NCBI GenBank assembly: GCA_036488875.1
Contig: DASXGW010000008.1
Span: 186,001 to 250,000, forward strand
Length of the DNA stretch: 64,000 nucleotides
DNA from: Candidatus Baltobacteraceae bacterium
GTDB lineage: Bacteria > Vulcanimicrobiota > Vulcanimicrobiia > Vulcanimicrobiales > Vulcanimicrobiaceae
Reading direction: 5' to 3'
Position 1 is the first letter of the stretch. The number at the start of each line of letters is the position of its first letter. Shown in pieces: positions 2,302-14,659 of this stretch. Position numbers and translations under genes: made by a program. A model generated the notes under the pieces. It worked only from the letters and a program-made list of their open reading frames with translations. It was not told the DNA's origin and did not search any database.

Positions 2302-2919
2302 ATGAGCGAGCCCTGTCCCCTCACGAGAATTATCTTAGCGAGCGCGTCGCCGCGCCGTTTGGAGCTGCTCCGTTCGCTCGGGCTTGACGTCGAGGTTGCG
2401 CCCAGCGGCTACCACGAGCCCGACTCGCCGCAGCTCACCCCGGCCGAGCTTGCCGTCGCGCACGCCCGCGAAAAGCTGGCCGCCGCGATCGCCAAGATCG
2501 GTGACTCCGCCGTACCGGTCGTCGCCGCCGATACCGTGGTCGACGTCGATGGGGCCGCGCTCAACAAGCCGGCGGACGAAGCCGACGCGGTCCGGATGCT
2601 CTCCGTGCTCTCGGGCCGCGAGCACCTCGTGCACACCGCCTTTGCGCTGGCCGTGCCCGGGGGCGAAACGATCAATGAACGCTCGACGACCGTAGTTCGC
2701 TTTTACCGGCTGACGCCGGACGAGATCGGCGACTACGTTGCAACCGGGGAACCGCTCGATAAAGCGGGTGCCTACGGCATTCAGGGGCTTGCCGCCGCGC
2801 TGGTGGAGTCGATCATGGGCGACTTTTATACCGTCATGGGCTTTCCGTTGGCGCGCTTCGTTCGCACGCTGCGCCGGTTGGGATTTGCGTTGCCCTTGCC
2901 GAAGAATCAAATAACGTAG
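2302..2919 (+). CDS. maf: Maf family nucleoside triphosphate pyrophosphatase
   Basis: This is a 205-residue protein, the usual Maf length. The N-terminus has the Maf signature LASASPRRLELLRSLG, followed by ADTVVDVDG, which carries the catalytic Asp of the family, and GKAGAYGIQG-like sequence (DKAGAYGIQG) near the C-terminus. Maf proteins hydrolyse non-canonical NTPs such as dTTP/UTP or m7GTP and are linked to arrest of septation. The gene is immediately upstream of mreC, the same association seen in many bacteria, so it is probably the first gene of the cell-shape operon. The ATG lies 17 bp from the divergent hlyD start, so promoters of both genes must overlap coding sequence. Confidence 0.93.
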   Translation: MSEPCPLTRIILASASPRRLELLRSLGLDVEVAPSGYHEPDSPQLTPAELAVAHAREKLAAAIAKIGDSAVPVVAADTVVDVDGAALNKPADEADAVRMLSVLSGREHLVHTAFALAVPGGETINERSTTVVRFYRLTPDEIGDYVATGEPLDKAGAYGIQGLAAALVESIMGDFYTVMGFPLARFVRTLRRLGFALPLPKNQIT

Positions 2920-2946
2920 GGGCGTTAATTCGTAAGGGGCTGGCCC

Positions 2947-3750
2947 ATTTTTACTTATCGGGACGAACGAAGACTGTTCGCGTTGATCACCGTTATCATC
3001 ATTGCGGCGATCGTTGCGCTCGTGCAAATCAGTGCCGAGCGCTCGGGCGAAGAGAGTCCGATCGCAACGGCGGCAACGTCGCTCTTCGGTATTACCGAGG
3101 TCGCGATTTCGACCAGCGTGGACGCGCTGCGTTCGGCCGGCACGGGTATCGTTTCGCTCCCGGGACTCGTGCACGAGAACGCGCGGCTGCGCGACGAGAA
3201 TCAGAAGCTCGTTCAAGAGAACGCGCGACTGCACGAGCTCGCTTCGATTTACGCATCGGAGACGACGATCCGTCCGATCGTCGACCTGTACCACGGCGTC
3301 GAAGCGCGTGTCGTCGGCTTCCCGCCCGAGAACGAGTCGCAAGCCGTCACGATCGATAAGGGCTCGATTTCCGGCGTGCATCGCGACGATGGGGTCCTCG
3401 ACGCCAACGGCGTCGTCGGACGCATCGCGTCGGTCGGACCGTTCTCGAGTACGGTCGTCTTGATCACCGACTACACCAGCCGCATTCCCGCGGTCGTGCG
3501 GCGCGGACGCTGGTGGGGCATCGCGCGCGGAAATCTCAGCAGCGTGCGCATGGAGTATATTCCCGAAGACGCACCGCTGCACGCCGGCGACGTGATCGTC
3601 ACCGGCGAAGGGCGATCGTTCCACGCCGGCGTTCCGATCGGGAACGTCGTTTCGATCGAACGCGGCGACACGACGCTGTATCAAACCGCGGTGGTCAAAC
3701 CCGCCGCAGCGTTGGGTGCTCTCGATCGCGTTGTCGTTGTCCCGCAGTAG
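2947..3750 (+). CDS. mreC: Rod shape-determining protein MreC, probable ATT start
   Basis: MreC is the periplasmic scaffold of the elongasome. The protein has one N-terminal membrane segment (TVIIIAAIVALVQI), a coiled coil rich in ENARLRDENQKL-type heptads, and the two beta-barrel domains (VDLYHGVEARVVGFPP, SGVHRDDGVLDANGVVGRI, GRSFHAGVPIGNVVSIE). The only conventional start, TTG 2983, lies just before the membrane segment. An ATT at 2947 sits 7 nt after a strong AAGGGG Shine-Dalgarno (2934-2939) and adds FTYRDERRLFA, a typical cytoplasmic n-region, giving 267 residues. The frame is closed by TAA at 2926. I prefer ATT, but the TTG cannot be excluded. mreD overlaps the 3' end. Confidence 0.88.
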   Translation: MFTYRDERRLFALITVIIIAAIVALVQISAERSGEESPIATAATSLFGITEVAISTSVDALRSAGTGIVSLPGLVHENARLRDENQKLVQENARLHELASIYASETTIRPIVDLYHGVEARVVGFPPENESQAVTIDKGSISGVHRDDGVLDANGVVGRIASVGPFSSTVVLITDYTSRIPAVVRRGRWWGIARGNLSSVRMEYIPEDAPLHAGDVIVTGEGRSFHAGVPIGNVVSIERGDTTLYQTAVVKPAAALGALDRVVVVPQ

Positions 3751-4279
3751 ACCAACCGCTTCTCCGAAACGCCGCTTCGCTCCGTACACCGGACCGCAGT
3801 GGCATATCGTCGCGCTCGTGCTCGCGGCGGCCGTGGTCGCGCAGGCGACGCTCTTACACTTTCTCGCGATTCGGGGTGCGACGCCGAGCCTCGTGCTGGT
3901 CGCAGTCGTCTGGTTTGCCATCCGCGTCGACGTGCGAAACGCCGCAATTTATGGGCTTTTTGCGGGAATTTGCGAGGACGTGCTGGCGGCCGGAACGGGC
4001 GGCGCGTGGACGATTTCGACGACCGCGACCGCGATGCTCACCAGCGTGCTGTCGCGCGGATTCTTCGCCGATTCGATTCCGATCGTCGCCGCGGTGACCG
4101 CAATCGCGACGCTCGTGCGCGCGCTCATTTTCTGGACGGTTATGTCGCTCGAAGGGTATCCGGGCGGCTTGGCCGGACTGCATTTCCATCAAGCGTTGTG
4201 GCAAGCGCTGCTCGACGTCGTCGTGATGATCGTTGCCATGCTGATCGCGCGCCGCTTCGAAACGACGCCGCGTTCGTGA
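3716..4279 (+). CDS. mreD: Rod shape-determining protein MreD
   Basis: This is a small polytopic inner-membrane protein of 187 residues from GTG 3716, with TTG 3731 and 3737 as alternatives. It shows five to six hydrophobic segments, beginning HIVALVLAAAVVAQATLLHFL, and the MreD hallmark of an early LVLVAVVWFAIRVDVRNAAIYGLFAG segment leading into GICEDVL. MreD bridges MreC and PBP2 in the elongasome. The 5' end overlaps mreC by 35 bp and the stop overlaps the mrdA start in a GTGA, so the three genes are translationally coupled. Confidence 0.88.
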   Translation: MLSIALSLSRSRPTASPKRRFAPYTGPQWHIVALVLAAAVVAQATLLHFLAIRGATPSLVLVAVVWFAIRVDVRNAAIYGLFAGICEDVLAAGTGGAWTISTTATAMLTSVLSRGFFADSIPIVAAVTAIATLVRALIFWTVMSLEGYPGGLAGLHFHQALWQALLDVVVMIVAMLIARRFETTPRS

Positions 4280-6144
4280 GTTACCCGTACGAGCGGCGCA
4301 AGAAGCCGCGCTGGGAGCGGCCCGTTTGGCGAATCGTTGGATTCGTCGGATTCGTGTTACTGTTATTGATCGCACTGATCGTGCGGCTGACGCAGATTCA
4401 AATCGTCGAGGGCGATTCGTACCGCTCCGCGGCGATGGCCAACCAAGTGCGATTGATTCCGGTCGCGGCGCCGCGCGGCATCATTCGCGACCGCAACGGC
4501 GTCGCGATGGTGCGCAGCCGTCCGTCGTTCGTCGTGGGACTGATTCCGTCGCAGGTGGCCGATATCGACGCCGAGCTGCACACCGTTTCCGAAAAGCTCG
4601 GCATTCCTTTAGACACGCTCGAGTACAAGCTGCTGCACCATCACGGCGTCAACTATCGCAACTTCGACGAAGTGGTGACCTACGAGCCGTACGGACCGGT
4701 GCTGCTCGACGAAGACGTTCCGGTCGCGCGCGTCGCGCGGCTCTCGGAAGTGCTGACGGATTTACCGGGTGTCGATCTGGAAGTCCAAGCGATTCGCGAT
4801 TATCCGTATCACGGTGAAGGATCGCATTTGTTCGGATACGTCGGACAAATCACGCAAAGCGAATACGCGCGGCTCAAAAAACAAGGCTACGCGCTCAACG
4901 ACGTCGTCGGCAAAGACGGATTGGAATACACGTACGATTCGTATCTGCGCGGCGTGCCCGGGGGGCAGCGGGTGGTGGTCGACGCGACCGGATCGGTCGT
5001 CTCGACGACCTCGGCCCAGGCCCCGATCTCCGGCGATACCCTGATCACCAATATCGATTTTCGGCTCCAGCAGATCGTCGAAGAGGCCCTCGCCGACGGC
5101 ATCAAGAGCTGGGGACACGGCCGCAAGCTGTCAGGCGGGGTCGTCGTCGAGGATCCGTGGACCGGCGGGATCCTCGCATTGGCGAGCTATCCGAACTTCG
5201 ATCCCAACGATTTCGCCGCGGACAACTATAAGAAGGTCGCGTTCGACCTGCTCGACCCCACTCAGCCGCTGTTCGATCGCGCGATTGCCGCAGCCACGCC
5301 GACCGGATCGACCTTCAAGATGGTCACCGGGTCGGCTGCGTTGACCGAGGGCGTCGTGAAAGTCGATCAGGTCGTCTACGACACCGGCGGCTGGAACTGT
5401 GGCGGCTTCTACGCGCGCGACATCGCGGCCGGCGGTCTGGGGAACACGACGTTCGTTCCGGCGCTCGCGGCGTCGTCCGACGGATACTTCTTCCGGCTGG
5501 CGTGGTGGCTGGGCAACGAGCGGCTGCGCAAGTACGCGTTGGCGTTCGGCCTCGATTCCAAGAGCGGCATCGACCTGCCGGGTGAAAACGAAGGCAACTG
5601 GCCGACCAATGCGTGGTCGATGCGCAACTTCGGCGTTCCGATGGAGCCCAGCGACTCGTGTTTCTTGGGGATCGGGCAAGGCGCGATGCAAGCGACGCCG
5701 CTGCAGATGGCCAACATCGCGTCGGCGGTAATCGACGGCGGCACGCTGTGGCGCCCGTACATCGCGCGCGAGATTCGCAAACCCAATGGAACGCTCGTCA
5801 AAACGTTTTCGTCGCAAATCATTCGCCACGTTCCGGTGACGCAGGCAGCGCTTGCGGCGGTGCGCGAGGGCATGGCGAAAGTCACCGATCCCGGCGGCAC
5901 GGCGTACGGTGAAAAGATCAAAGGCTTACCGTACTCCGGGAAAACCGGAACCGCCGAAACCGCCGGCGGCGCCGGCCCGAACACGACGTGGTTCATCGCG
6001 TGGGCTCCGACGGGTCATCCGAAACTTGCGATTGCCGTGTTCGTCGATCGCAGCGGCGGGTACGGCGCGAGCGTTGCAGCGCCGATCGCCCGCCAAATCA
6101 TGATCGAATACTTCAAGATCAAAGACCCCGGCCCGGGATACTAG
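4276..6144 (+). CDS. mrdA: Penicillin-binding protein 2 (elongasome transpeptidase)
   Basis: The protein has 622 residues from GTG 4276, which overlaps the mreD stop. It has one membrane anchor (about residues 18-38), a PBP dimerisation domain, and a transpeptidase domain. The catalytic motifs are S345-T-F-K348, S400-S-D402 and K556-T-G-T. It crosslinks peptidoglycan during lateral wall growth with MreC, MreD and RodA. No rodA follows: the next genes are convergent, and the stop codon is shared palindromically (CTAG 6141-6144) with the end of the opposing gene. RodA and MreB must be elsewhere. Confidence 0.93.
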   Translation: MSYPYERRKKPRWERPVWRIVGFVGFVLLLLIALIVRLTQIQIVEGDSYRSAAMANQVRLIPVAAPRGIIRDRNGVAMVRSRPSFVVGLIPSQVADIDAELHTVSEKLGIPLDTLEYKLLHHHGVNYRNFDEVVTYEPYGPVLLDEDVPVARVARLSEVLTDLPGVDLEVQAIRDYPYHGEGSHLFGYVGQITQSEYARLKKQGYALNDVVGKDGLEYTYDSYLRGVPGGQRVVVDATGSVVSTTSAQAPISGDTLITNIDFRLQQIVEEALADGIKSWGHGRKLSGGVVVEDPWTGGILALASYPNFDPNDFAADNYKKVAFDLLDPTQPLFDRAIAAATPTGSTFKMVTGSAALTEGVVKVDQVVYDTGGWNCGGFYARDIAAGGLGNTTFVPALAASSDGYFFRLAWWLGNERLRKYALAFGLDSKSGIDLPGENEGNWPTNAWSMRNFGVPMEPSDSCFLGIGQGAMQATPLQMANIASAVIDGGTLWRPYIAREIRKPNGTLVKTFSSQIIRHVPVTQAALAAVREGMAKVTDPGGTAYGEKIKGLPYSGKTGTAETAGGAGPNTTWFIAWAPTGHPKLAIAVFVDRSGGYGASVAAPIARQIMIEYFKIKDPGPGY

Positions 6145-6455
6145 GCCCCTGACATGGGCAGCGTTTTCAACGCGGCATCGATCGCTTTGCGCACGGACGG
6201 CGTGCGTTCGTCGCGCAGCGCGGCGCGCAGGACGTCCACGCACCACGGTTCCCCGACGATCGTGAGGCGCTCGACGATTTCGATGCGCGTGGCGGCGTCG
6301 CACGACGCGGCGTCGTCGACGCCGGCAGCTTCGAGCCACGCCGACGCCGCGGCTTCGGCGTTTGGATCGACCGAACGTGCGCGCGCGTAAATCGTGCCGA
6401 CGGCGTAGAGGATCGTGCCGCCGGCGAAGACGAGGACCGGGATCGCGTAGTTAAT
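6141..6455 (-). CDS. Small membrane-anchored HEAT-like protein, cassette A, probable ATT start
   Basis: No ATG, GTG or TTG opens this frame before its conserved-looking core, yet the frame reads cleanly for 104 residues. It begins with NYAIPVLVFAGGTILYAVGTIY, one membrane helix of about 20 residues. A helical HEAT-like pair follows (RIEIVERLTIVGEPWCVDVL, RAALRDERTPSVRKAIDAAL). The codons are GC-rich at third positions, like real genes here. An ATT at 6455 overlaps the TAA of the upstream DUF11-like gene (ATTAA), suggesting reinitiation. The neighbouring cassette has a clear counterpart at 9762-10175 with the same position and architecture, which is the main support. Function is unknown. Confidence 0.6.
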   Translation of the reverse strand: MNYAIPVLVFAGGTILYAVGTIYARARSVDPNAEAAASAWLEAAGVDDAASCDAATRIEIVERLTIVGEPWCVDVLRAALRDERTPSVRKAIDAALKTLPMSGA

Positions 6456-9400
6456 CGACGGCCAGATGTGCCGCGCCGCGAAGCGCGTCCAAGACGCCGG
6501 TGAAGGAGTCGTCGAGCCCGCGGTTTACGCTCGTGGTGAGCACGCGGTGGAACTCGTCGATCGGCAGTTCCGAAAGCACCGTGAAGACGCGCGTAATCTC
6601 TTCGCGATAGGCGGCGAGCGCCTCGGAGCGCGTGCCGTCGTGCAGCACGCTGGTTCCGAGCAGGTGCGCGTTGATGATCCACGGATTGACCGCGCCCAGC
6701 GGTGCCGTGTCGAGCTCGGGCATCAGCGCGCGCACTTTGTCGGCGTCGATCGATCCTTCGATGCGCACGATGCCGGCCGGCGGCGCGAGCGCATCTTGAG
6801 GCGATGCGAGCACGAGCTCGTCGAGCAGACCGCGCAGCGCGGCGCGGCTGTCGCGATCTTCCAAATCTTTGCCGGTAATGGTTAAGCGCGGCATGCGCAA
6901 CCGGACGAAGAACCGCTCGAGGGGCGCGCGCACCGCGCGGCTCGTGTTGGTAAACGCCGACGACAACGCCGGCGATGCGGCGACGGCGTTTTCCGGAAAG
7001 AGCATGCGCAGTGCGAAGAGGTGCTGCACCAAACCGCCGGCTTCACTGCGCTCGAGCAGTTTGATCGTGTGCGCCAATCGGTCCGCGGCGAAGTCGATGT
7101 AGAGCATCGGTCCGCCGGCGGCGGCAATCGGTGCGATGGCGGCAAGCGGTGCCGTCGCTTCGAGACGATCGGCCTGTTCGGCGATGACTTCGGCAATCGC
7201 GCGCGGCGGCGGTTCTTCGAGCGCCGGTGCCGTCAGCGCAACTTCGGGGTCGGGCAGCTCGAACTGCGGCGGCAGCGGCGGCGGTTCGTATGCGGCGGCC
7301 GATTCGGCGGGGAAGATGCGCGCCACCGAAAGCGGCACGCCGATCGTCGATTCGCCCAAGGTCGGCTGCGCCTGCACGCGCAGCGGCGGCGCGGCCAGCG
7401 CGATGTTTTGCCCGTCGCCCCACTCCAGCACGGCGCGCGTTTCGAGCGTCGTGCCGGCCGACAGCGGCGCGATGACGCTGACTTCCCAGCGGATGCGCAG
7501 CTCCACGTTGGGATTGACGTCGGCGAGAACCAAACCACGATTGGACCACAAGATCGACGCGCCGGCTTCGTCGGCAAGCGCGAGTCCGTTGATCGTCGTG
7601 CTCGACGGCACGTACACCGCCAAGTTGGTCGGAATGACGCGCACCAGCAGACGGTCGGCGGGGCCGTCGCCTTCGTTGCGCAGGCGAATCTCGTAGTACA
7701 CGTGCTCGCCGGCGTTGACGCTGTCGGAGGGCGCGGCCATGAGCTGCGCGCCGGCAAAATCGGGTTGCGCGTGCGTCGGTACTTCCAGCGGCGGGAACTG
7801 CACCGGACTGATGCCCTTTCCGCGCAGCCAGCCTTCGAGCGTGAGCGGCCGGTCGTGAGGAACCGGGCGCAGCAGACGCAACGTCAAGCGCGCTTCGTGC
7901 GTGCGCTCGGCGGCGACGTCGCCGAAGACGAGGCCTTCGCGATCGCGCCGCGCGTCGATCGCGCGCTCGAGCGCGAGCTCGGGCGGTAACGTGAGCGTCA
8001 AGCGGGCGTCGCGCAGCACGTCGGATCCGGCGTTGGTGAAACGCACCAGGACATCGACGAAGCGGTGCGGGCGCAGCGGCTCGTTCGAAGCGAGTTCCCA
8101 CGCGACCGATTCGCGGAAGACTTGCGGTCGCGAGCGTACGACGACCGTCGACGTGCCGAGATCGATCGCGCCGCCGTCGTGCTCGAGAACCACGCCGAGG
8201 GTAACGTTCGAACGGTCGGGCACTTTCGACGCGACGCGCGCGGAGATAACGAAGACGCGCTCGTGATGCGGGGGCACGATGCCCAGATCGAGCGGCTCGC
8301 GATACGGCAGCGGCTCGTCGGTGGCTTCGGCGATCCGCACGTCGTCGAGATGCACGCCGGGAATGACGCGCAGACGCACGTTGCGTTCGGGTGCGGTGCC
8401 GTCGTTATAAACGTGTGCCAGGAAGCGGACGTCGTCGCGCGCGTGCGCGACGCCGTGATCGGCTTCGACGTAGTTGCGCGCGCGGTTGAAGCGCGGTGAA
8501 ACGCGGACGCTCAGTCGCCGTGCGAAATCGCGTTCGCCGCCCTTCCAGCGCAGCGCCGCTTCGATCGGCAGCGTCAACTCGCCGCCGGGCGGTGGAACGG
8601 CAACGGTCGCTGCCAGGCCGACTTCCACGACGCGATTGGACGCGAGCGTGCCGATCGAGAACGTGAGTCCCGGAATCGATTCGTCGCTGACCGGCTGTCC
8701 GTCGACGCTTGCCGAACCGGGTGCGTAGACCAGGCCGGGCGGTAATGCGAACGAAATCGCCACAAACTCGGCCGCGCCGGTGCCGGCGTTGACGGCGCGC
8801 ATCGCGATCGGAATGCGCATTCCCGGCGCGACCGCATCGTCGCACAACACGGTCAGCGCGGTTTCTTCGCCGCTGAAATCGACCGGCGACGCGACGTAAA
8901 TCTCCGCCGACGCGATCGGAAACTCGTTACATTCGCGCGAGCCGAGTCCGCCGACGGCTTTGATGCGCGTGCTGTCGGGAAGCGGCGAGTCGATCGTCGC
9001 TTGGTATTCGATGGTCACCGACTGACCGGGCGCAAGCTTTTCCGTAACGACGGTAGCGCTGTCGTAATCGAACGGTTCGCCTTCGATTCCCAGCACCACG
9101 CGTCCGTCGATGCGCGCGCTGCGCGGAACGTAGGTCGTGTGCTCCGGCGCGGGAAGCAGTGCGACCACGTCGTGCGCGCTCGCCGATCCGGTGTTGACGA
9201 TCGTCGCGCGCACCGACACCGCGTCGCCCGGACGCGGTTTGTCGGGCGCGCTCAAGGTGACGAGCGTCGACGTGTTTTGCAGCATCGGACGGCTGCGCAC
9301 GATGACGCGCTCGATGTTCGATGCGAGCAGCGCGGTTTGATCGCTGACCAGCGCCGCTTGGAAAACGAGCTCGGTTCCGTCTTCGATCGGATCGCTGACG

Positions 9401-9726
9401 CGGAACGAACACGAGACTTTGCGTTGTGAGTTGGGTTCGAGATCGCCGATCAGCGTGCCGTTCGCGTCGACCAAGTGACCTTCACCGGCGATCGGGCGAT
9501 CGTCGACGAGATCGTCTTCGGGTACGTGCGAGACGCCCTGCGGATGCGAGAACCGCACGCGCACGCCGGTCGCGCTCGCACCGCCGAAGTTCGAGAAGCT
9601 GAACTCCGCGCGAACCGTTTCACCTGGAAGCACCGAGCGCTTGGGCTCGAGCACGAGCGTACGCAGGCTCTCGACCAATGCGGGAGAGCCCGGAGCAAAG
9701 ATGCCGGTCAGCGACGTGGATGCCAC
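6451..9726 (-). CDS. Giant multi-DUF11/CARDB-like repeat protein, cassette A
   Basis: The protein has 1,091 residues from GTG 9726. It starts STSLTGIFAPGSPALVESLR with no signal peptide or membrane segment. About six immunoglobulin-like DUF11-type modules follow over residues 20-790, recognisable by the recurring pattern PGD.V......N.G...A..V....P......PGSASVDG. A Pro-rich linker spans about 800-880. The C-terminal ~200 residues are helical (DRLAHTIKLLERSEAGGLVQ). The gene at 10182-13427 is a paralogue over its whole length, including this C-terminal domain. DUF11 modules are normally extracellular adhesive stalks, so the lack of an export signal is odd. It may act in the cytoplasm or use an unknown route. 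The small membrane protein downstream probably works with it. Confidence 0.8.
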   Translation of the reverse strand: MASTSLTGIFAPGSPALVESLRTLVLEPKRSVLPGETVRAEFSFSNFGGASATGVRVRFSHPQGVSHVPEDDLVDDRPIAGEGHLVDANGTLIGDLEPNSQRKVSCSFRVSDPIEDGTELVFQAALVSDQTALLASNIERVIVRSRPMLQNTSTLVTLSAPDKPRPGDAVSVRATIVNTGSASAHDVVALLPAPEHTTYVPRSARIDGRVVLGIEGEPFDYDSATVVTEKLAPGQSVTIEYQATIDSPLPDSTRIKAVGGLGSRECNEFPIASAEIYVASPVDFSGEETALTVLCDDAVAPGMRIPIAMRAVNAGTGAAEFVAISFALPPGLVYAPGSASVDGQPVSDESIPGLTFSIGTLASNRVVEVGLAATVAVPPPGGELTLPIEAALRWKGGERDFARRLSVRVSPRFNRARNYVEADHGVAHARDDVRFLAHVYNDGTAPERNVRLRVIPGVHLDDVRIAEATDEPLPYREPLDLGIVPPHHERVFVISARVASKVPDRSNVTLGVVLEHDGGAIDLGTSTVVVRSRPQVFRESVAWELASNEPLRPHRFVDVLVRFTNAGSDVLRDARLTLTLPPELALERAIDARRDREGLVFGDVAAERTHEARLTLRLLRPVPHDRPLTLEGWLRGKGISPVQFPPLEVPTHAQPDFAGAQLMAAPSDSVNAGEHVYYEIRLRNEGDGPADRLLVRVIPTNLAVYVPSSTTINGLALADEAGASILWSNRGLVLADVNPNVELRIRWEVSVIAPLSAGTTLETRAVLEWGDGQNIALAAPPLRVQAQPTLGESTIGVPLSVARIFPAESAAAYEPPPLPPQFELPDPEVALTAPALEEPPPRAIAEVIAEQADRLEATAPLAAIAPIAAAGGPMLYIDFAADRLAHTIKLLERSEAGGLVQHLFALRMLFPENAVAASPALSSAFTNTSRAVRAPLERFFVRLRMPRLTITGKDLEDRDSRAALRGLLDELVLASPQDALAPPAGIVRIEGSIDADKVRALMPELDTAPLGAVNPWIINAHLLGTSVLHDGTRSEALAAYREEITRVFTVLSELPIDEFHRVLTTSVNRGLDDSFTGVLDALRGAAHLAVD

Positions 9727-9761
9727 TAGTCAGCCTCTTTCACGCTGTACGGCACGGCGAC

Positions 9762-10175
9762 CTACGGCGGCGCCAGTAAGCTTAACGTATGGGCGATGCG
9801 CTCGGCTCGTTCCCCGGGGTGCCGAGCAAGATACGCGTCGACGGCGTCGGAACGTCCGCGTTCCTTGAGCGCGCGGGCCGCGGCCAGCGCGACGGTCTCG
9901 GACGGGTCGTCCAACGCGTGCTCGAGCAGCTGCGCGGAGCGCTCGTCGTCGAGTGCCGAGACGCCGAAGATCATGTCGCAGCGCGCGGCCTCGAGAAGCG
10001 AGTCGAACTCTGCGGCGGTTGCCGTGTTGAAGCCGGTATCCACGTGCACGTCCTCGCGCGGAGTCTCAGCGACCTCGCGTTCGACGCGCGCCTTGCGCGG
10101 AGCGACCAGTGCGTAGATGCCCAGCGCGGCCCCAATGGCGAAGGCCACGATCAGGGCAATCGCGATCGCGCTCAT
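9762..10175 (-). CDS. Small membrane-anchored HEAT-like protein, cassette B
   Basis: This is a 137-residue protein starting MSAIAIALIVAFAIGAALGIYALVAPRKA, a single N-terminal membrane helix followed by positively charged residues. That predicts N-out/C-in anchoring. A variable linker and an alpha-helical repeat region follow (DERSAQLLEHALDDPSETVAL, AAARALKERGRSDAVDAYL), which looks like HEAT/PBS repeats. It lies 6 bp downstream of the second DUF11-like gene and matches the small gene at 6141-6455 in position and architecture. A membrane-attached adaptor for the large partner is a reasonable guess. No family name can be given from sequence alone. Confidence 0.75.
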   Translation of the reverse strand: MSAIAIALIVAFAIGAALGIYALVAPRKARVEREVAETPREDVHVDTGFNTATAAEFDSLLEAARCDMIFGVSALDDERSAQLLEHALDDPSETVALAAARALKERGRSDAVDAYLARHPGERAERIAHTLSLLAPP

Positions 10176-10181
10176 CCTTGG

Positions 10182-13100
10182 CTAGACGCCGGCGTGAAGC
10201 GACGTGCGCACGACGTCGAGCGCTCCGTCGAGCGCGGCATCGCGCTTGCGCTGCAGCGCGTCGATGAACTCGGTCGTGTCGGCCTGCGCGAGGGCATCGA
10301 GCCGGTCGATCAGCAGCGCGCGGTAGTGCTGCAGCTGCTGCGTACCGTCGGGCAGCAGCCGCGCGAGCGCGCCCCACGGAAGCGCCGACGCGAGCGGAGC
10401 CTCTTCGAGACGATCGGCAAAGTCGCGCAGTTCCGACGGATCGTAACTGCCGCGCAGCACGACCGTCGCCGCCGGCGATTCGGCCGGAACGCCGCGCGCG
10501 TTGGCCGCGTCTTCGAGCACGCGTTCGATCGTGGTGCGCACGGACGGCGTTTCGAGATCGCGCGGCGCGATAACGTAACTCGGCAGGCGCAGCTTGATGA
10601 AGAGCCGGTCGAACTCTTCGCGCAGCAGATCGCGCAAGGCGGGAAGCGATCCGCCGTGCGTATCGCCGACCGCATCGGGCAGCAGTGCGCGCAGCGCGAA
10701 CAAGTGCGTTACCATTCCGCCGAAGCGCGCTTCTTCCAACAGCCGGAGCGCGCGCGCGAGCCGGTCGCCGGTAAAGGCAACCGAGCTGCCCGCACCGTTG
10801 GCCATCAGCGTCCCCTCGACGACGCCGCTCTGCGTCGCGTCGTTATCGGGTTCTTGCCCTTGCTCGAGTGCGGCGATGGGATACCGGTTGAGAACGCGCG
10901 TGTGACCGTTGGCTTCGCCGACCGGCGTGGCCGGCGGAAGTTCCAGGAAGCGCTCGGAGTCGATCGCGCGCTGGCTGCCGCCGAAAGCCGGCCCGATCAT
11001 GCCGTCGAGGCCGAACGGCAAACCGGGAATGGCGTTGGCGAACACCGGCGTCGCGCGCACTTTGAGCTCGCCGCTGGCGACTTCGTCGTCACGCTCGCCG
11101 TCGTAGCGAATGTGTGCGGCGCGGACGATGGCTTCACCGGCGGGCAGACCGTTGTGCACCACGTCGTGCCAGCGCACCGTCGCCTCGACGCCGGGATCGA
11201 CGTCGTTGAGCACGATGCCGCGCGAACTGGCAAACGGCGCTTGCGCGCCGACGTCGCGTACCGGAACGTCGTTGACGGTCGTCGAGTTCGGAACGTAAAT
11301 GAGCGTCTCGGGCTGCTCGACCGAGATGATGACGCGGCGCGCGGGACCGTCGCCGCCGTTTCGCACGTGCAGCACCCATTCCACCGTTTCGCCGACGTCG
11401 ACGACGTCGATCGGCTCGCTGCGGAACGTTCCCACCGAGAAGTCGGGCTCGGCAGTCGTCGCGATGACCAAGCGCGGTAACGGAACCGGAAGCATCGCGT
11501 CGGCGGTCAGCACGCCGTCGACGGTGACCGGAAACTCTTTGGCCAGACTGCGCAGCAAACGCAATCCCAAACGCGCTTTGGCGGTCGCACCGGGCAGAAT
11601 CTCGCCGAAGACGAGCGACGACTTCTCGCGGATCGCTCCGTCGACGCTTTCAAGGCGCGCTTCGGGTGAAACGTAGAGGCGCAGGCGCACGTTGTGCGCG
11701 ACGTCGGTGCCGGTGTTGACGACGATCGCGTCGACGTCGGCGAGCTGATTGGGACGCAGCACCGCGTCGCTGGCGAGCTCGAGCCGCGACGTTTGCGCGT
11801 CGAACGCCGGATGCGAATCGACGCGCCACGCGGCTTCGCCCAGCGGCGTTTCGCCCAGTTCGCGGGTGTGCACGCTCGCGCCGACGCGCACTTCGCTGCG
11901 ATCGGCGTACGGCGTGCGAATGCGCCCGCGAATGTTGATGCGGCGCGCGGAGTAGGCGTCGAGCGTGCCGAGATCGACCGTGTCGCTCTCGAGCGTCAGC
12001 CGCGAATTCTTTTCGAACACGCGCGTTTCTTCCAGTGCCGGATCGAGACGCAGATGCAGCACGACGTCGGCCGCCGGCGCGCTGCCGTCGTTGGCAACGT
12101 CGATGGTGGCTTCGACGTCGCCGCCGGGCCGCACGACCTCGCCGCCCAGGCGCGCGATATAGTTGCGTCGCTGCGCGAGCGCCGGCTCGGAATGGATGGC
12201 GATGCTGCGTTCGAGCCGCCGTGCCGCGACGTCGGTTGACGGTTCCCACGTCAGCGAAGCGGCAACCGATAGCGTCGTCGCATCGGGCAGCGGCGAAACG
12301 ACGACGGCTTCGGCGCGGAGGTCGACGTGTTCGCCCGCGTCGATGCGTCCGAGATCGAAGACCAACGGATCTTTGCGGCGGTCGCGGATCGGCCGTCCGT
12401 CGATGCTCGACGCGCCTCGAACGAGCGCGAGCGTATCGGGAAGTTCGAGCGTCGCCGTTGCGCTGTCGGCGGCCGCGGTTCCGGTGTTGTAGGCGGTTAC
12501 CGCGAGCGTGACGCGCTGTCCCGGGCGCACGTCGTGCGACGGTTCGACCGACAGTCCGGTGCGGTCGTCGCCGAAATCCGGTGCCGCGCGAACGACCAGC
12601 GTCGCGGGTTCGAGCTCGAACGCGGCCGTTTCTTGGGACGCGATCTGCGCCCTTGCCGTGACGCGCGTGCCGTCGGCCAGCGGGGCGTCGATGCGAATGC
12701 GATAGACCAGGGTCGCCGACGCGCTTGCCGATAGCGACGCGGCGACGATCGGCGCGTAGAGCCGGTCGTACGCAATGCCGAGATCGCGTTCGAGTTCGCG
12801 GCCGTTCACGCGCGCCGAACCGGTGACGTACGCGGCGTGTTCGGGAATCGGTGCGACGACGACCACGTCGTGCGCGCTCGACTCCCCGGCATTGTGAATG
12901 CGAATGGTCACCTGCGCTTCGGATCCGGGGCTCGGATCTTGGCGCGCCTCGACCGAAATGCGGGTGAGCGCGTTCTGCAGTTGCGGACGGCTGCGCGCGA
13001 CCAGCCGGACGACGTTGGAGCCGACGGGCGGGAGCTCGAACGAGGCGACGGCCGCTTGGAGCTCGACGGTCGTACCGTTCTCGATCGCGCCGGCGACACT

Positions 13101-13427
13101 GTACGCAATTTCGATCTTGCGCTCTTCGCCTGGGGCAACGTCGCCGATATGCGCGCCGCTGCGCGCGAGCAGCGGAGAGTTGCCGAGTTCGTCGTCGAGC
13201 GACGCGCCGTCGAGCTCGCCGCTTCCGACCAGATACACCAGGCCGTCGGGAAGATTGAATCGTACGCGAACGCCGGTGGCCACGGCGCCGCCCTGGTTGC
13301 GGAACGTGAACGTCGCACGTACCGTCATTCCAGGTTCCAACTCGCGGTCGGGCGAAACGGCGAGGGTTCTAAGGCCCTCGGGCAACGTAGGTGCTCCGGG
13401 GGCGAAAACTTCCGACAGCGTGCGCAT
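10182..13427 (-). CDS. Giant multi-DUF11/CARDB-like repeat protein, cassette B
   Basis: The protein has 1,081 residues from ATG 13427. This start was chosen because RTLSEVFAPGAPTLPEGLRTL aligns with the N-terminus of the paralogue at 6451-9726. Six DUF11-like modules follow, with motifs such as TFRNQGGAVATGVRVRFNLP, HNAGESSAHDVVVVAP and NTGTDVAHNVRLRLYV. The C-terminal helical domain includes DRLARALRLLEEARFGGMVT. The shared order of every module shows whole-gene duplication rather than repeat expansion. There is no signal peptide. The gene starts back-to-back with the aminotransferase (ATG 13463), leaving 35 bp for both promoters. Confidence 0.8.
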   Translation of the reverse strand: MRTLSEVFAPGAPTLPEGLRTLAVSPDRELEPGMTVRATFTFRNQGGAVATGVRVRFNLPDGLVYLVGSGELDGASLDDELGNSPLLARSGAHIGDVAPGEERKIEIAYSVAGAIENGTTVELQAAVASFELPPVGSNVVRLVARSRPQLQNALTRISVEARQDPSPGSEAQVTIRIHNAGESSAHDVVVVAPIPEHAAYVTGSARVNGRELERDLGIAYDRLYAPIVAASLSASASATLVYRIRIDAPLADGTRVTARAQIASQETAAFELEPATLVVRAAPDFGDDRTGLSVEPSHDVRPGQRVTLAVTAYNTGTAAADSATATLELPDTLALVRGASSIDGRPIRDRRKDPLVFDLGRIDAGEHVDLRAEAVVVSPLPDATTLSVAASLTWEPSTDVAARRLERSIAIHSEPALAQRRNYIARLGGEVVRPGGDVEATIDVANDGSAPAADVVLHLRLDPALEETRVFEKNSRLTLESDTVDLGTLDAYSARRINIRGRIRTPYADRSEVRVGASVHTRELGETPLGEAAWRVDSHPAFDAQTSRLELASDAVLRPNQLADVDAIVVNTGTDVAHNVRLRLYVSPEARLESVDGAIREKSSLVFGEILPGATAKARLGLRLLRSLAKEFPVTVDGVLTADAMLPVPLPRLVIATTAEPDFSVGTFRSEPIDVVDVGETVEWVLHVRNGGDGPARRVIISVEQPETLIYVPNSTTVNDVPVRDVGAQAPFASSRGIVLNDVDPGVEATVRWHDVVHNGLPAGEAIVRAAHIRYDGERDDEVASGELKVRATPVFANAIPGLPFGLDGMIGPAFGGSQRAIDSERFLELPPATPVGEANGHTRVLNRYPIAALEQGQEPDNDATQSGVVEGTLMANGAGSSVAFTGDRLARALRLLEEARFGGMVTHLFALRALLPDAVGDTHGGSLPALRDLLREEFDRLFIKLRLPSYVIAPRDLETPSVRTTIERVLEDAANARGVPAESPAATVVLRGSYDPSELRDFADRLEEAPLASALPWGALARLLPDGTQQLQHYRALLIDRLDALAQADTTEFIDALQRKRDAALDGALDVVRTSLHAGV

Positions 13428-13462
13428 GACGCGGGACGTTTCGCCGCAAGGAAAGGGTTGCC

Positions 13463-14659
13463 ATGCTCGCAGTTCACGAAGATCGTATCGCCGCCGCCGT
13501 CGCGCGTCTCGGCTCCGAAAATGCATTTGAAGTGCTCGCTCGAGCGCGTCAACTCGAGGCCGAAGGGCGTCGCGTCGTTCACATGGAGATCGGCGAGCCG
13601 GACTTCGATACGCCCGAGCATATCAAGAAGGCGGCCGTCGACGCGCTCTATGACAACCACACCCACTACACGCCGTCGGCCGGCATTCCGACGCTGCGCG
13701 CGACGATCGCCGATTACGCCAGCCGCTTCCGCCGCATCTCGCCGGCCTACACGGCCGAGAGCGTCGTCATCTCGCCGGGCGCCAAACCGATTATTTGGAA
13801 CATCCTGTCGGCTCTGCTCGATCCGGGCGACGACTTCGTCTACTTTGATCCTGCGTATCCGGCGTATGCTTCCTGTGCGAGCTACCATCAAGCCAACATT
13901 CACGCGATCCCACTGCTCGAGTCGCGCCAGTGGCGCATGGACCTCGACGAGCTCGCGCGCCGCGTCTCGGACAAGACCAAGGCGATCGTCATCAACTCGC
14001 CGCACAACCCGACCGGCGGCGTGCTCACCAAAGGCGATCTCGAACGCATTGCCGAGCTGGCGAACCGTCACGACTTCATCGTCATCGCCGACGAGATCTA
14101 CAGCCGCAACTTCTATCTGGACACCGAGTACGTCTCGATCGCGGCGCTCGACGGCATGCGCGACCGTACCATTATCGTCGACGGATTCTCGAAAGCGTAC
14201 GCGATGACGGGCTGGCGCTTGGGCTACGCGCTGATGCCGGATCGTCTCGCCAAGACCGTGACGCTCTTCAACAACAACACGTTTAGCTGCGTGGCGACGT
14301 TCGTGCAAATGGCCGGCATCGCCGCGCTCACCGGCGACGACACGCCGGTGCGCCGCATGAACGACATCTTCCGCCAACGGCGCGACCGTTTGGTCAACGG
14401 CCTCAATGCGATTCCGGGCGTTTCGTGCACGCTGCCCGAAGGCGCGTTCTACGCGTTCCCCAACGTGACCGAGATCACGCACGACGACCGCGCGCTCGCG
14501 AAGTTCCTCTTAGAGGAAGGCGGCGTCGCGTGCGGCGGCGGCTCTTCGTTCGGCGCGGCCGGAAAAGGCTATCTGCGATTCTCCTACGCGGCGTCGCTGG
14601 AAGACATCGACTGGGCGCTGGATTCTATCGCCAAGACAATCCCGAAGTTCAAGGGCTAG
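13463..14659 (+). CDS. Class I/II pyridoxal-phosphate aminotransferase
   Basis: This is a 398-residue fold-type I aminotransferase. Visible motifs are the N-terminal EIGEPDFDTPEHI, YTPSAGIPTLRATIADY, the NSPHNPTGG block that binds PLP, and the Schiff-base lysine K244 in GFSKAYAMTGWRLGY. The family includes aspartate, aromatic and branched-chain aminotransferases, and the substrate cannot be fixed from sequence. The next two small membrane genes follow closely on the same strand, but they need not be related in function. Confidence 0.9.
   Translation: MLAVHEDRIAAAVARLGSENAFEVLARARQLEAEGRRVVHMEIGEPDFDTPEHIKKAAVDALYDNHTHYTPSAGIPTLRATIADYASRFRRISPAYTAESVVISPGAKPIIWNILSALLDPGDDFVYFDPAYPAYASCASYHQANIHAIPLLESRQWRMDLDELARRVSDKTKAIVINSPHNPTGGVLTKGDLERIAELANRHDFIVIADEIYSRNFYLDTEYVSIAALDGMRDRTIIVDGFSKAYAMTGWRLGYALMPDRLAKTVTLFNNNTFSCVATFVQMAGIAALTGDDTPVRRMNDIFRQRRDRLVNGLNAIPGVSCTLPEGAFYAFPNVTEITHDDRALAKFLLEEGGVACGGGSSFGAAGKGYLRFSYAASLEDIDWALDSIAKTIPKFKG

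Follow-up and report, generated by a model that had tools for sequence, protein, structure and literature searches.

A candidate two-component, membrane-tethered intracellular scaffold with DUF11-type arms in the phylum Vulcanimicrobiota

Two adjacent cassettes in the window (the whole stretch of 64,000 nucleotides that was analyzed, derived from a 3.7 Mb genome of the phylum Vulcanimicrobiota / Ca. Eremiobacterota) each encode a large protein with DUF11-type modules and a helical C-terminal domain (CTD), and a small partner with a membrane helix and HEAT-like repeats. The sequences show that the pair formed by the CTD and its partner is conserved, the large proteins are devoid of an export signal, the CTD is distinct, the small protein and the CTD occur as natural fusions, and one CTD clade resides in a type IV pilus operon. 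We lean towards the view that each cassette specifies a two-part scaffold in the cytoplasm with a tether to the inner membrane, and that scaffolds of this kind serve different envelope machines; on balance, the CTD-HEAT pair would be the core of the system.

The cassettes are transcribed from the minus strand in the order bigB-smB-bigA-smA and are convergent to mreC-mreD-mrdA, an arrangement that an earlier note on this DNA had correctly described. The same note had assigned about 1,080-1,090 residues to the large proteins, in good agreement with the two products listed here, each composed of six DUF11-type modules and the helical CTD:

10182..13427, minus strand: big protein B, 1,081 amino acids, ATG start; six DUF11-type modules, linker and CTD, without an export signal
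9762..10175, minus strand: small partner B, 137 amino acids; membrane helix at the N-terminus and HEAT-like repeats
6451..9726, minus strand: big protein A, 1,091 amino acids, GTG start; module order as in B, 33% identical
6141..6467, minus strand: small partner A, about 104-108 amino acids; membrane helix and HEAT-like repeats; non-standard start, ATC at 6467 or ATT at 6455
6454..7113, minus strand: CTD of A; model pLDDT 95.7, no solved fold known
10185..10796, minus strand: CTD of B
11058..13382, minus strand: DUF11 array of B, six modules (residues ~16-790)
7327..9681, minus strand: DUF11 array of A, six modules; approximate, from the alignment to B
2983..6144, plus strand: mreC-mreD-mrdA, convergent neighbor; context only, outside the cassette
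13463..14659, plus strand: class I/II aminotransferase, divergent neighbor 35 bp away; context only

In most copies of the large protein, the N-terminal motif MRTLSEVFAPGAPTLPEGLRTL (in A copies VASTSLTGIFAPGSPALVESLRTL) starts at the start codon, and a longer start for big B at position 13526 is not used by its relatives, which begin MRTLSEVFAPGAPTLPEGLRTL. The start of small A is unsure because there is no ATG, GTG or TTG upstream of its helix, the nearest codons being the ATC and ATT given above; in several relatives, small A has a TTG start at about the place that corresponds to positions 6455-6467 of the window. The starts of big B and of the aminotransferase gene (window positions 13427-13463) are divergent and only 35 bp apart, so that one promoter or both must extend into coding sequence. 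At the other side of the cassettes, the mre operon of the window (positions 2302-3750; compared with loci L065-L081) lacks an mreB paralogue that many relatives possess between maf and mreC.

Pfam recognizes DUF11, CARDB and NPCBM_assoc modules in the large proteins, with PF01345 (DUF11) scoring 64 and 106 bits against a cut-off of 24.6. Big A and big B align over their full length with 33% identity and share the same module order. The earlier note had concluded that whole cassettes were duplicated; the duplication is old and not a fresh copy, since in a tree of the CTD, which covers many genera, A-type and B-type sequences fall into different clades. Loss of copy A has occurred repeatedly. 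In the full-length AlphaFold model of big B, six β-sandwich modules occupy residues ~16-790 and the helical CTD residues 879-1081, with a linker between them that is disordered (794-875); the relative placement of the domains is uncertain at a pTM of 0.35. Foldseek retrieved Ig-arrays of the ciliary central apparatus (9ijj, 7sqc) as the best matches of this model, with E-values down to 1e-25 and low TM-scores of 0.13-0.18, because the placement of the modules differs. Extracellular proteins (integrins, complement) are matched as well, and the ciliary likeness is hence an analogy only. The DUF11 arm is dispensable, as copies consisting of the CTD without the DUF11 array exist in two genera (g18 and g24) as well as among the copies encoded in pilus operons. 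A distant array is found in another family of the phylum, where a 1,333-residue, signal-less DUF11-like protein (L063, genome G056) is encoded beside genes for ExeA-type ATPases; the CTD was not detected in this protein.

No named family covers the CTD: the last ~215 residues of the large proteins have no match in Pfam, and NCBIfam agrees. A model of this domain built from 43 homologues reaches a pLDDT of 95.7 and a pTM of 0.91. Foldseek searches of the PDB gave a best E-value of 0.29, with query-normalized TM-scores of no more than 0.26 among the matches listed, and nothing significant was returned when PDB sequences were searched with a profile. The CTD is a distinct, confidently modeled domain with no solved relative among the PDB matches. 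A comparison with viral models yielded no significant match (best E-value 0.27), and a phage or defense origin of the cassettes was discarded given the lack of both a viral fold match for the CTD and a PADLOC match. A weak alignment of one half of the CTD to the other (hhalign P 1.5e-4, probability 25%) raises the possibility that the domain arose by internal duplication. Across the phylum, the CTD profile has matches in 84 of 149 genomes, with none outside families f1 and f2. A scan of genome contigs matched only three close relatives, and those relatives that bear a name are Candidatus Eremiobacterota MAGs.

The earlier note had asked whether the small gene always follows the large one, and virtually always it does: the partner was detected by profile just downstream of 61 of the 64 distinct assessable CTD genes. 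Since it was the big protein or the CTD, and not the partner, that served to pick the loci, this count is free of selection for the partner; the 64 CTD copies are related to each other and do not therefore represent 64 independent events. As to the remaining three genes, the partner in genome G006 was recognized by eye, one CTD is itself fused, and copy A in locus L037 has no partner. HEAT_2 is the best Pfam match of both window partners at 22.9 and 17.6 bits, below the curated cut-off of 27.7, while a longer partner from family f2 attains 33.9 bits with a HEAT profile (cut-off 27.7). Each window partner has an N-terminal membrane helix, followed by weak HEAT-like repeats. The helix is present in 56 of the 61 partners; among those of the pilus type, two are without a clear helix and two are marginal.

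The net charge of the partners averages +1.4 on the C-terminal side of the helix and +0.2 on its N-terminal side, with the C-terminal flank being the more positive one in 33 partners and the N-terminal flank in nine. By the positive-inside rule, the excess of positive charge after the helix points to a cytoplasmic location of the HEAT part. Natural rearrangements support this topology and the partnership as well. All ten sampled genomes of genus g24 encode an in-frame fusion of the helix and HEAT segment (TM-HEAT) with the CTD, and in genome G029 (L054) a complete DUF11 array that lacks the CTD is joined to the transmembrane helix and a linker, with the sequence RRPRPSRR following the helix. 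Taken together, the helix charge, the g24 fusion and the TM-DUF11 fusion would make the entire complex cytoplasmic, with a tie to the inner membrane, which fits the internal, membrane-tethered scaffold that the earlier note had considered. The helix of the partner in genome G015 (L062) is replaced by a long, soluble, charged repeat. The divergent cassettes of G015 and G006 are followed by genes (L062:371-1510 and L066:6866-7975) for proteins of 369-379 amino acids that have no Pfam match; they possibly encode a third component.

Most members of family f1 carry the cassette between mrdA and the aminotransferase gene, and in most relatives without the cassette, the aminotransferase gene comes directly after mrdA. 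The mrdA neighborhood is vertically inherited synteny within one family, and adjacency to mrdA is on this account weak evidence of function. A specific role in envelope growth, at which the earlier note had hinted from the position next to mreCD-mrdA, is not supported in that form; other copies are found in pil operons, by clpX/priA, or alone. In the CTD tree, each of these contexts forms its own clade, with the pil-type and mrdA-type copies being separate and with further clades beside clpX/priA or standing alone ('solo'); one genome (G009) carries both 'solo' and 'clp' type cassettes. One or both cassettes were lost in some genomes (e.g., G036), and the cassettes are hence not essential.

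Seven genera (represented by G004, G014, G016, G017, G023, G031 and G103) possess a CTD-HEAT pair inside a type IV pilus operon, whose gene order is pilB-pilT-pilC-pilA-pilD-pilM-N-O-P-pilQ-CTD-HEAT-PilT-like ATPase, although contig ends cut off some of these parts and the gene caller left others unscored. The CTD protein encoded there (317-441 amino acids) directly follows pilQ, with a gap of -4 to +8 nucleotides in six of the seven operons and of 130 nucleotides, by the predicted start, in the seventh; its HEAT partner lies upstream of the gene for the PilT-like T2SSE ATPase. In family f2 (G038), a DUF11-CTD-HEAT cassette is part of a pilM...secretin-GGDEF-HD operon. The GGDEF and HD-domain genes are located between the secretin gene and the DUF11-CTD gene (L094:12563-14298), hinting at c-di-GMP control.

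These operons raise the question of whether all versions, including those of the window, belong to the type IV pilus machine as accessory parts that, for example, position or regulate its ATPases, with the window copies acting in trans. In seven genera, complete pil operons contain members of one CTD clade beside a PilT-like ATPase, the f2 copy sits in another pil operon together with c-di-GMP genes, and a pilM-Q operon is also present in the genome of the window. This latter operon, however, contains no CTD gene, the pil-type and mrdA-type CTDs belong to separate clades, and mrdA-type cassettes are present in four genomes (G033, 96% complete and with two cassettes; G005, 96%; G026; G034) that lack the T2SSF platform protein and, in all four cases, a close PilT-like ATPase. 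As mrdA-type cassettes persist without T2SSF, they do not need type IV pili; a dependence of the window-type cassette on these pili was therefore ruled out, and we consider the general pilus interpretation to be fairly unlikely. A regulatory or stress-linked membrane assembly that is unrelated to envelope machines, for instance a docking platform for signaling or proteolysis, could be envisioned from the clade by clpX/priA and from the f2 copy that comes after GGDEF and HD genes. In the loci read, the clpX neighbors nevertheless lie outside the transcription unit of the cassette, and the contexts differ between clades and so imply no single pathway; we view such an assembly as unlikely.

It is quite improbable, in our opinion, that the cassette is a component of the elongasome (Rod complex) that replaced an operon-linked second MreB. 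This idea derives from the fact that genomes with a B-type cassette at mrdA are without the mreB paralogue that separates maf from mreC in other relatives. The apparent mutual exclusion is broken by genus g9 (L099-L101), in which a cassette between mrdA and the aminotransferase gene coexists with that mreB, and by G006, in which a divergent cassette does so; moreover, the paralogue was lost on a single branch of the family and thus in one event, G036 has neither the cassette nor the operon-linked mreB, and a canonical MreB is kept elsewhere in nearly all genomes. Replacement of MreB was rejected on these grounds, and a constant linkage to mre genes is not found either, given the pil, clp, solo and f2 contexts. 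DUF11 and CARDB modules are usually extracellular, and the large proteins might accordingly be exported by a non-Sec route and work outside the cell like other DUF11 proteins. This we judge to be very improbable: neither a signal peptide nor another hydrophobic stretch was found in big A, big B or 40-odd homologues, in keeping with what the earlier note had reported for the two window proteins, the conserved N-terminal motif begins at the start methionine, and the pair is not accompanied by any dedicated export gene. The helix charges of the partner and the TM-HEAT-CTD and TM-DUF11 fusions place the domains on the cytoplasmic side, and a secreted protein was dismissed because of the missing signal and the wrong charge topology.

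In the tethered cytoplasmic scaffold that we favor, the small protein would sit in the inner membrane by its one N-terminal helix in an N-out/C-in orientation that leaves its HEAT domain cytoplasmic; the large protein would reach into the cytoplasm with its six Ig-like DUF11 modules, a jointed arm by which other proteins would be collected or spaced at the membrane. We infer that the CTD of the large protein would bind the small HEAT partner, that the assembly would act as a scaffold, and that the tandem pair of the window, beside the Rod/mre genes, would most likely organize a membrane-bound envelope machine; the Rod complex next door is a possible candidate, a suggestion that rests on inherited synteny. 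In one lineage, the CTD-HEAT pair belongs to the type IV pilus operon; paralogues that carry long DUF11 arms would have moved elsewhere. A broader proposal is that of a new two-component, membrane-tethered intracellular scaffold on a new fold, with a CTD-HEAT docking unit whose origin may lie in a type IV pilus operon and whose Ig-armed paralogues were redeployed to other envelope machines, comparable to the hydin-type arrays of cilia; we take this seriously without calling it probable.

If true, bacteria would have an intracellular Ig-array scaffold comparable to those ciliary arrays. DUF11 modules, usually treated as surface decoration, appear here inside the cell, as an arm that has a membrane anchor of its own, and these signal-less arms argue against the default extracellular reading of DUF11 proteins. 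The pil-operon CTD clade is directly testable in a phylum that has a cultivated, type IV-piliated member, V. alpinus WC8-2, whose cells vary from rods to filaments and which exhibits phototactic movement with type IV pili (PMC9758169). Among the papers searched, none pairs DUF11 with HEAT repeats and the cytoplasm, and none is relevant to HEAT repeats and twitching motility.

Among known systems, PilM, PilN, PilO, PilB and PilT are encoded in the same pil operon as one CTD-HEAT clade, which follows pilQ there, but no sequence or fold relation of these proteins to the CTD-HEAT pair was found, and we know of no pilus accessory protein that combines such a CTD with a TM-HEAT partner. RodZ/MreC-type elongasome adaptors likewise feature, as an analogy from general knowledge, a single-pass tether and a cytoplasmic domain beside mre/mrdA; the window proteins have neither the HTH domain of RodZ nor homology to it, and their linkage to mrdA is not universal. 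The HYDIN/CFAP-type ASH (MSP-like) proteins (9ijj, 7sqc) resemble the arms of the window proteins in being long strings of Ig-like modules, and theirs is an intracellular scaffold; they are, however, eukaryotic and have no CTD or HEAT-TM partner, and homology is not claimed. The modules of the arms themselves significantly match the Ig-like families of DUF11 (PF01345), CARDB (PF07705) and NPCBM_assoc (PF10633) repeat proteins. To our knowledge, the known DUF11-type repeat proteins are exported surface proteins, whereas the large proteins of the window lack a signal, possess a CTD that is unique to them, and are almost always paired with a membrane partner that has a putative cytoplasmic domain.
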